Notes under the pieces: model-generated
Told to the model about the DNA's origin: nothing
Seen by the model: only the letters and a program-made list of their open reading frames with translations
The model's database searches: none
Made by a program: the position numbers and the translations under genes
In this document: positions 5,560-8,292 of the stretch, piece by piece
Layout of the letters: each line of letters begins with the position of its first letter
Numbering within the stretch: position 1 is the first letter of the stretch
IMG/VR virus record: IMGVR_UViG_3300042375_000086
Location: 1-20,145 of that record
DNA from: a virus
Direction: 5' to 3' (one strand)
Length of the DNA stretch: 20,145 nt

Positions 5560-5605
5560 GACTTAATCCTTAAAAGTACCCTTGAGAATTTCTTGGGCTG
5601 AGTGA

Positions 5606-5634
5606 AGTATAGCAAACTAAACAGACTTGTGCAA
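5606..5634 (-). promoter_or_regulatory. Leftward promoter carrying the shared control element
   Basis: On the minus strand TATACT (5611-5606) is preceded by TGC (extended -10), and TTGCAC (5634-5629) sits 17 bp upstream. The 19 bases TGTTTAGTTTGCTATACTT (5623-5605) match the rightward promoter at 8133-8151 exactly. A start near 5599 gives a leader of about 40 nt to the ATG at 5559. The rest of the 5560-5655 gap holds no gene that I can support. Confidence 0.72.
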
Positions 5635-5655: not shown

Positions 5656-5988
5656 CTACTCCGTAGTTTTTACGCCAAGACGCTCACTTGCTTGCTCAGA
5701 CCGCCATATGTCGGCTTTCATCTGGGCGGCAACCAGCATGAACTTGAGGGTCTCCTCCCTCTCTATGGCCACCATTAGCCCTCTAAGCAAATCAGCATAC
5801 TCAATGTGGGCATAGGCTTCTCTCTCTTGCGACACAGCAGAGTCAAATCCTTTGGCTAACGCATCCTTCATCAGCAATGCCTTCTTGGTCTTGCGGAATT
5901 CTTCGAGGTACACCCTTTGTGCTTTAGCCTCGGCAAACTTTGGTGCGTTTTCAATGATGTATTCAATGGCTTTGTAGGGTGCTTTCAC
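5656..5988 (-). CDS. Conserved helical phage protein, unknown function
   Basis: This 110-residue, almost wholly helical, charged protein starts with GTG at 5986-5988, overlapping the TGA of the VRR-NUC gene (GTGA). It contains APKFAEAKAQRVYLEEFRKT (residues 15-34), KKALLMKDA, SQEREAYAHIEYADLLRGL and VAIEREETLKFMLVAAQMKA, and ends with WRSEQASERLGVK. The 'RVYLEEFRKxKKALLM ... EREAYAHxEY ... EExLxxMLVAAQxxxxxWRSxxAS' pattern is a recurring phage family seen near replication and recombination genes; I recall no assigned reaction. The coiled-coil character suggests a protein-protein adaptor. It is the last gene of the operon running from the Cro-like gene; no terminator follows. Confidence 0.82.
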   Translation of the reverse strand: MKAPYKAIEYIIENAPKFAEAKAQRVYLEEFRKTKKALLMKDALAKGFDSAVSQEREAYAHIEYADLLRGLMVAIEREETLKFMLVAAQMKADIWRSEQASERLGVKTTE

Positions 5989-7400: not shown

Positions 7401-7512
7401 AATAATTTCCGCCTTTTACTCGCCCCTTGAAAGAAACAGTCGGCAGGAGAGGGGATAACTCTTTTCGGTACGCTCATGACTTCGTACCTAGCCGTTGTTT
7501 CAAAACATTGTA
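7401..7512 (-). other. 112-bp leader before the replication gene
   Basis: This is the only non-coding stretch over 100 bp in the leftward replication block. It contains in-frame alternatives that overlap the replication gene but have no family resemblance, and the Shine-Dalgarno of that gene. No clear promoter, terminator or repeat is visible. Confidence 0.4.
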
Positions 7513-7881
7513 TCAAATAAACTGGTTATTTGTAATATCTTGTGAAAACGATTTACCAAACAATCTTGTAGCTTGGGCGTTCATAACCGCATATTCAGCC
7601 TTAGAAAAGATACCTCTGGCATTGCGAATGTCGAATGGATTTAGCTTGTCGTAAGGCTCATCATTGGCAGCTTGGGTAGCTACAATCATATGTGGCTCTA
7701 AAGTGTACTGAGAAACCCAAGAACGTCCCATCTTAATTTTTCCAATTTTTAGTTTGTTTTTGTAACTCATTTTTGTGCAACAAGCTGCAATGGATAGTCG
7801 TGGTATGCCAGTTAAATCCTCTATTTGATAGGATGTAAGTGGGCCGTTTTGTAGGCATCTGATAACTGCTTCTTGTGTCAT
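7513..7881 (-). CDS. Winged-helix DNA-binding protein
   Basis: This 122-residue protein starts at the ATG at 7879-7881, whose ATGA overlaps the TGA of the Cro-like gene; a longer frame to 7944 exists but would run through Cro. Its N-terminus (TQEAVIRCLQNGPLTSYQIE, DLTGIPRLSIAACCTKM) is a winged helix-turn-helix, with recognition helix around residues 26-37 and the 'wing' GKIKMGRSWVSQYTL (48-62). The C-terminal 60 residues (IVATQAANDEPYDKLNPFDI, ARGIFSKAEYAVM) are unlike a known domain to me. It could be a second regulator that acts with Cro on the control region, or a replication accessory protein; the sequence cannot separate these. A GAC/AAC-rich 3' end meets the leader of the replication gene. 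Confidence 0.8.
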   Translation of the reverse strand: MTQEAVIRCLQNGPLTSYQIEDLTGIPRLSIAACCTKMSYKNKLKIGKIKMGRSWVSQYTLEPHMIVATQAANDEPYDKLNPFDIRNARGIFSKAEYAVMNAQATRLFGKSFSQDITNNQFI

Positions 7882-8030
7882 TTGAACCACTCTGGTCTGA
7901 GTTCTTTTAGTTGATAAATGCGTAACTGAGGGATTGTCTTCCAATGGTTAACAGCCGCCCTTGTGATACCTAATATTCTAGCAAGCTCACTCTGTGAGCC
8001 AGCAAGTGTGATAGCTTTTTTTATGTTCAT
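7878..8030 (-). CDS. Cro-like repressor
   Basis: This 50-residue protein has the lambda-type HTH at residues 12-31 (SQSELARILGITRAAVNHWK) followed by IPQLRIYQLKELRPEW, the short strand-helix tail typical of Cro/YdaS-like proteins. Length and layout match phage Cro (about 60-70 residues), slightly compact. The ATG at 8028-8030 has no Shine-Dalgarno, and the -10 of its own promoter (8042-8037) ends only six bases before it, so the message should be leaderless or nearly so. Downstream, ATGA couples it to the winged-helix gene. As the only HTH repressor seen, and adjacent to the divergent control region, it is the best candidate to bind the shared 19-bp promoter element. No CI-type partner is present here. 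Confidence 0.88.
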   Translation of the reverse strand: MNIKKAITLAGSQSELARILGITRAAVNHWKTIPQLRIYQLKELRPEWFK

Positions 8031-8036
8031 TTAACA

Positions 8037-8064
8037 AGTATAGCAAAGTTTACAAGATAAACAA
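8037..8064 (-). promoter_or_regulatory. Leftward promoter for the Cro-like operon
   Basis: On the minus strand TTGTTT (8064-8059) and TATACT (8042-8037) are 16 bp apart, with TGC before the -10 (extended -10). The expected start is at or next to the ATG at 8030, hence a leaderless transcript. The stretch 8056-8035 matches the rightward promoter's 8131-8152 at 19 of 22 bases, in inverted orientation. Confidence 0.78.
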
Positions 8065-8082
8065 TTAGGACAAACCCTTAGA
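8064..8082. repeat. Operator-like repeat, copy A
   Basis: ATTAGGACAAACCCTTAGA is 15/19 identical to copy B at 8095-8113, with a 31-bp spacing (about three helical turns). It abuts the -35 box of the leftward promoter. The TAGG...CTTA ends are imperfectly symmetric, as expected for a dimer-binding site. Confidence 0.55.
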
Positions 8083-8094
8083 TAAAAATACAAC

Positions 8095-8113
8095 ATTAGG
8101 GAAAACACCTAGA
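8095..8113. repeat. Operator-like repeat, copy B
   Basis: ATTAGGGAAAACACCTAGA is the second copy, with TAGG and CCTA arms in inverted orientation around a 7-bp centre. It lies 9 bp upstream of the -35 box of the rightward promoter, a place suited to an activator or a cooperative repressor. Confidence 0.55.
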
Positions 8114-8122
8114 AAATAGTTG

Positions 8123-8150
8123 TTGACCTGCTTGTTTAGTTTGCTATACT
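8123..8150 (+). promoter_or_regulatory. Rightward promoter of the recombination operon
   Basis: TTGACC (8123-8128) and TATACT (8145-8150) are 16 bp apart, with TGC in front of the -10 (extended -10). It is the strongest promoter-like sequence in the window: the -35 matches 5/6 and the -10 5/6. The start is expected near 8157, about 43 nt before the first ATG at 8200. Confidence 0.82.
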
Positions 8151-8158
8151 TGCATCAG

Positions 8159-8180
8159 CCCACAACAAAACGTAAGTGGG
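8159..8180 (+). other. Leader hairpin at the 5' end of the rightward message
   Basis: CCCAC pairs with GTGGG around a 12-nt loop and is followed by TATTTTTAAGG. The predicted transcript begins within a few bases of the left arm, so this would be a terminal stem-loop. It may protect the message, or act as a weak attenuator with the short T-run. Confidence 0.4.
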
Positions 8181-8199
8181 TATTTTTAAGGAAATCAAA

Positions 8200-8292
8200 A
8201 TGAAAAGTAAGATTATTCAGACGCTAGTTGAATGTGTATTAGCCATCGTTATCTTTGGCGGTATCGGTATCCTCTTAGCTTGGAGAGGCTAA
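8200..8292 (+). CDS. 30-aa single-pass membrane peptide
   Basis: This is the first gene of the rightward operon, with AAGGA 7 nt before the ATG and a TAATG junction to the next gene. The product has a short basic start (MKSKIIQ) and then one hydrophobic helix (TLVECVLAIVIFGG, IGILLAW) ending in Arg-Gly. A single inner-membrane segment fits. No family is recognised; small hydrophobic first genes are common in phage early operons, but the role is not evident from sequence. Confidence 0.72.
   Translation: MKSKIIQTLVECVLAIVIFGGIGILLAWRG

Follow-up and report, generated by a model that had tools for sequence, protein, structure and literature searches.

The Cro circuits of P22 and lambda, the closest described systems to the locus analyzed here, pair a small helix-turn-helix (HTH) protein of the P22_Cro family with imperfect 16–17-bp dyads placed over divergent early promoters, and cro is the first gene of the replication operon. 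In the telomere phages phiKO2, N15, and PY54, which are temperate and carry a prophage repressor, operators are likewise 16 bp long and their outermost nucleotides set the specificity of Cro; phiKO2 Cro binds OR3 only and shows no autorepression (PMC4997575). A repeated regulatory unit is known from Cluster K mycobacteriophages, where SAS/ESAS, an inverted repeat combined with a start site, stands before several genes in each genome (PMC3203893). The present locus, in a 20,145-nt stretch of viral DNA from IMG/VR (the window), shares with P22 and lambda the protein family, the dyads over divergent early promoters, and the position of cro. Unlike in those phages, there is one operator per promoter rather than three per divergent promoter region, no repressor gene lies between the divergent promoters, an internal promoter 2.4 kb away carries a third operator, and neither CI nor an integrase was found: profile searches of 18 records, which may be incomplete, gave no match to integrase (PF00589) or S24 peptidase (PF00717) and none above cut-off to HTH_3 (PF01381). 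This fits a lytic phage in which Cro is the only regulator of the Cro/CI type, and the arrangement looks like a CI-less, Cro-only circuit. Compared with SAS/ESAS, sequences and hosts are different, each genome has only two full copies of the unit, the unit includes a promoter and a putative operator, and a candidate DNA-binding protein can be named (PMC3203893).

A preliminary description of the window had proposed that one element is used three times. The 19-bp repeat TGTTTAGTTTGCTATACTT occurs exactly at 8133–8151 (+) and 5605–5623 (-), with a third copy at 8036–8054 (-) that differs from it at 3 of 19 positions and no further match in the window; the chance expectation is 0.02, and three copies were seen in 0 of 100 dinucleotide shuffles, in accordance with that proposal. 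The 16-bp core of the repeat is an imperfect dyad, GTnTAG-N4-CTAnAC; two of the sites fit the symmetric consensus perfectly, and the third departs from it at two positions. Each copy includes TGnTATACT and occupies a plausible promoter (P_right, P_cro, and P3; Table 1), and counting 7 nt past each -10 reproduces the start positions suggested earlier (A8157, A8030, and A5599, all predicted). We consider it highly likely, from the sequence features set out below, that the three copies are operators for a Cro-like repressor, lying over the spacer and -10 of these promoters. P_right leads into genes for recombination, SSB, and MazG, and P_cro into cro, a winged-helix-like gene, and replication genes; P3 is a second leftward start past the replication block, heading to HNH and terminase genes. 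The predicted P_cro start is the A of the cro ATG, so that this mRNA would be leaderless; the distance from the -10 to this ATG is 5–7 nt in 174 of 179 loci. A separate observation concerns the Rfam int-alpA RNA (RF02996), which has a match of 30.3 bits, just below the cut-off of 35.8, at 7424–7498 (-), between the second gene of the cro operon and a replication gene; the match recurs in 16 of 18 related records, three times above the cut-off, though an integrase was not found in them.

Table 1. Predicted promoters, putative operators, and associated features, in coordinates of the window.
Feature	Position	Strand	Details
Putative operator O at P_right	8134..8149	+	GTTTAG-TTTG-CTATAC, 16-bp dyad over spacer and -10
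P_right	8123..8150	+	-35 TTGACC 8123-8128, spacer 16 nt, extended -10 TGCTATACT, hexamer 8145-8150
P_right predicted start	A8157	+	from spacing to conserved CA in relatives
Putative operator O at P_cro	8038..8053	-	GTAAAC-TTTG-CTATAC, distal half degenerate
P_cro	8037..8064	-	-35 TTGTTT 8064-8059, spacer 16 nt, -10 TATACT 8042-8037
P_cro predicted start	A8030	-	first base of cro ATG
Putative operator O at P3	5607..5622	-	exact GTTTAG-TTTG-CTATAC
P3	5606..5634	-	-35 TTGCAC 5634-5629, spacer 17 nt, extended -10 TGCTATACT, predicted start A5599
Element A of P_right	8097..8111		TAGGGAAAACACCTA, centre about -53
Element A of P_cro	8066..8080		TAAGGGTTTGTCCTA on the - strand, centre about -42
Element A of P3	5644..5658		TAGGGAAAGTACCTA on the - strand, centre about -52
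Hairpin leader of P_right	8158..8181	+	1 nt past predicted +1; ribosome-binding AAGGA 8188-8192
Hairpin leader of P3	5578..5598	-	followed by AAGGA 5571-5567 and ATG of 5338-5559 gene
cro-like gene	7878..8030	-	50 aa, HTH of P22 Cro family (PF14549)
First gene past P_right	8200..8292	+	30-aa predicted membrane peptide
Winged-helix-like protein gene	7513..7944		adjoins cro

Searching IMG/VR with the Cro protein gave 397 related stretches, the best 80 of which were taken as relatives; further loci came from a second clade and then from a third (Gln-type) clade. It should be noted that these relatives are metagenomic contigs and possibly incomplete; near-identical DNA was not found in the INPHARED phage collection. 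The search of related phages for the three-site layout, as proposed in the preliminary description, recovered it in 49 of the 53 close-relative loci with a downstream flank longer than 4.2 kb. With a profile of P_right sites, the relatives' loci give P_right, P_cro, a third site 2.2–4.1 kb downstream of cro, and one weak match elsewhere. When ten 30–35-kb relatives were scanned over their whole genomes, strong O sites were found at the three promoters and only scattered low-scoring matches elsewhere. P_right and P3 are duplicates of a single cassette, which consists of element A, a -35, the putative operator across an extended -10, a hairpin at +1, and a ribosome site, and the full cassette is present exactly twice per genome in these ten relatives and in the window (Markov control, about 0), with the exception of one record with duplicated ends. 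The bases flanking the -10 boxes, the loss of which would have contradicted the preliminary description, are retained by relatives at both P_right and P3. The distal half of the P_cro site varies among them (GTTAAC, GTTGAC, or GTTGAT), and 9 of 54 non-redundant close relatives no longer have it. As a correction to the preliminary description, the putative operator at P_cro is the weak member of the set, sometimes lost.

The cassette has a wider distribution than the full layout. P3 was not found within the about 5 kb examined in clades 2 and 3, which share the Cro cassette, and on this comparison the third promoter is specific to the window's clade. Its place directly past the gene ending at 5656 suggests that leftward transcription would be restarted there, as already proposed, and led towards the HNH and terminase genes, with the qualification that the restart belongs to this clade. 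One Gln-type locus (L187) has an additional complete cassette, whose TATAAG arms agree with its Cro type, indicating that cassette copies occupy different places in different phages; this copy lies in the rightward region, about 467 bp upstream of cro, and has TTGACA, TATAAGACAACTTATAAT, and a hairpin leader. The early-region genes common to all compared clades are only Cro and the 30-aa membrane peptide, which is conserved (73–79%) in clades whose other genes differ and may be a functional cargo of the cassette. The repeat belongs to a larger promoter cassette that is conserved and transferable. The window's terminase is 63% identical to that of Methylophilales phage Venkman; Venkman and MW202481 share the terminase without the cassette. 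The cassette is also present on a Comamonadaceae MAG contig (L084), and from this single such MAG we infer, weakly, that the host is probably in or near the Comamonadaceae.

In relatives, the centre of the P3 dyad is TTTG, AAAT, TAAA, or AAAA while the arms persist (e.g., GTTTAG-AAAT-CTATAC, GTTTAG-TAAA-CTATAC, and GTTGAG-AAAA-CTATAC), and in several of these variants the -10 is TACAAT, shifted by 2, at an unchanged distance to the leader CAG. P_right centres in clade 2 are CAAA, ATTT, ATTG, ATTA, CGTT, or GTTT within constant arms. Promoter consensus does not account for arms that stay constant around a changing 4-bp centre and a changing -10 register, in agreement with the preliminary description, and we read the dyad as an operator. 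The Cro-like protein scores 39.5 bits against the P22_Cro profile PF14549 (cut-off 30.2), and its best plausible PDB match is P22 Cro (1rzs; E = 0.0025). The first variable residue of its recognition helix, which we take to align with position 27 of lambda Cro, is usually Arg; a single clade has Gln instead. Arg-type Cros go with GT-type operators (GT..AG arms) in 134 of 134 non-redundant loci and Gln-type Cros with TATAA-N6-CTTAT-type operators in 13 of 13 scored loci; 6 further Gln-type loci that were cut by the scan window have TATAA in the wider sequence. Fisher's exact test gives 7e-19, a value that overstates independence because the Gln-type cases essentially form a single lineage; the change from Arg probably took place once, and the association is strong in quality, not in count. 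The GT/TA arm switch is in line with the specificity of the phiKO2 and PY54 Cro proteins for the outermost nucleotides of their operators (PMC4997575). Other positions of the recognition helix vary widely without a change of operator and correlate poorly with it, and RS-type Cros retain GTATAG at P_right or P3 in several loci (L080, L081, L068, and L070–L072). An initially suggestive association of RS-type helices with GTNGAG operators was rejected, being contradicted by L080, L081, and L181/L182 and by unchanged P3 sites. The operator is very probably read by the phage's own 50-residue Cro-like repressor.

We considered whether the copies might instead have arisen by duplication of a single strong extended -10 promoter and be conserved through RNA polymerase recognition, given that every copy has TGnTATACT at a plausible promoter and that the leader is duplicated as well. 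This is very unlikely: the conserved dyad reaches 6 bases upstream of any sigma-70 contact, its arms survive both the replacement of the TTTG extended -10 and the shift of the -10, and its distal half becomes ATAAG along with the Cro helix. The fact that the operator follows the Cro helix residue also bears on the question of whether another protein reads the dyad, the winged-helix-like protein being an example whose gene neighbors cro and is conserved in 76 of 80 close relatives. The other two clades retain the operator but lack that gene in every one of their 99 loci, and the short list of early genes shared across clades holds, besides Cro, the 30-aa peptide alone, so that a reader other than Cro is likewise very unlikely. 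The regulon of three promoters under a Cro-like protein that was originally suggested is in this way upheld by the layout, the near-exclusive sites, and the Cro covariation; what was underestimated is the size of the unit, which extends to a second dyad and a hairpin leader.

The second dyad, element A (TAGG-N7/8-CCTA), lies upstream of all three promoters, either at -42 or, farther out by a turn of the helix, at -52. Among 152 non-redundant promoters, the distance from element A to the -10 is 20–25 nt (94 promoters) or 30–34 nt (58 promoters) and never 26–29 nt, i.e., the two clusters differ by one DNA turn. A -35 starting with TTG is found in 3 of the 94 promoters with a near element A (about -42) and in 50 of the 58 with a far one (about -52; Fisher 8e-28, inflated by relatedness). 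The divergent promoters of the window are more widely separated, and two copies are present between them, each at the usual distance from its promoter. At P3, the first TAG of element A doubles as the stop codon of the upstream gene (5656–5988), an overlap that recurs in many relatives. Element A is the same under Arg- and Gln-type Cro, and it is also unchanged in MW202544, a distant phage with a Cro of about 50% identity. Because it is constant across Cro types and the shared early genes are only those named above, a host factor is its simplest reader; the winged-helix gene was rejected for this role, since clades 2 and 3 have element A but not this gene. The geometry resembles that of NarL-family boxes, which we take to be 7-2-7-like dyads, and the position relative to the -10 is like that of LuxR/NarL-family boxes such as the CrbR ACTU motif. 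The latter (TACTACCATCGTCGAAT) is located at -52 to -36, just upstream of RpoD promoters, and was rejected as the identity of element A since the sequences do not match (PMC5715377).

We also searched 101 host-family genomes for element A together with a -10-like hexamer at set spacing, with gene starts assigned by a GC3-based proxy (a longest-ORF proxy being unsuited to GC-rich host DNA). The numbers are small: 17 matches at a spacing of 22–24, 5 at 27–29, and 10 at 32–34, and, again in small numbers, 15 of 17 host matches precede a same-strand gene start, whereas a composition-matched motif does so in 5 of 17 cases (p = 0.001). A reversed-pattern control gave more matches than element A itself, perhaps because TAGG/CCTA is rare in these genomes; position relative to genes and the composition-matched motif were therefore used as controls. 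Two host matches precede what seems to be the same SCP2-like gene in two genomes (the gene name was judged by eye). An element-A-like box in L295 and L299, from host-family genomes G115 and G117, is embedded in a longer stretch conserved between the two, TAGGGTTT..TACCTAAAACAATC.ATTAGACATTAACAAACGCGATGACTAAGAT. A promoter-spaced copy of element A was not found in the Comamonadaceae MAG of L084. These observations are suggestive, and element A is probably the site of a host activator.

The P_right and P3 transcripts are predicted to start at the A of CAGCCC, so that the hairpin begins at +2. There are 54 distinct hairpin cores among 232 leaders, most with an ANNNC pentaloop, and compensatory changes are seen both next to the loop (GC/GC, AC/GU, and GA/UC) and in the outer stem (A-U to G-C); anchoring of the alignment on pairing biases the count for the inner pairs but leaves that for the outer pair unaffected. 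In the window, folding is better than in shuffles for the leader of P_right (z = -2.26) and not for that of P3 taken alone (z = -0.21), and the hairpin is conserved and covarying across relatives. Most likely, it would protect the 5' end of the mRNA.

Both added parts of the cassette can be read differently. As a dyad at -42 or -52 of all three promoters, element A might be a second site for Cro or another phage repressor, activating or repressing from -42 as lambda CI does at OR2, and its distances match those of activation of the lambda PRM type. We regard this as unlikely, given that element A is unaltered across the Arg-to-Gln change in Cro and in MW202544, that no candidate reader gene besides Cro is common to all clades, and that, in small numbers, the same box stands at the same spacing before genes in host-family genomes. 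The hairpin, in turn, could be a nut-like or put-like site for antitermination or RNA-protein recognition, as its pentaloop is conserved while the stems change and it occurs only on the P_right and P3 transcripts, both of which enter long operons. This reading, somewhat unlikely in our view, has to accommodate the position of the hairpin at the predicted +1 with the ribosome-binding site directly after it, as for a 5'-protecting hairpin; moreover, a conserved boxA-like element was not found past the hairpin, and an antiterminator gene was not identified. Protection of the mRNA 5' end is thus our preferred role for the hairpin.

In the circuit that we propose, host RNA polymerase would fire all three promoters early in infection, probably aided by the host activator at element A. 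As Cro accumulates, it would bind the strong operators at P_right and P3, in which both half-sites are good, and shut both promoters down, and the half-degenerate operator at P_cro would fill later, resulting in loose autoregulation. Tentatively, this group may thus be one of lytic phages with a portable two-input cassette, in which a host-factor box at -42/-52 would turn transcription on according to host physiology and the Cro operator would turn it off, with only the Cro input coevolving with the phage protein and the host box staying fixed among phages that otherwise differ.

The locus provides an example of a Cro-type circuit where lysogeny genes were not found. The analysis gives a regulatory map for an uncultured group of freshwater phages that is well represented in public viromes. 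The Cro helices matched with their operators, a clean Arg/Gln switch among them, form a natural data set from which rules of protein-DNA recognition may be derived. If element A is the box of a host regulator, the start of the lytic program would be tied to the physiology of the host.
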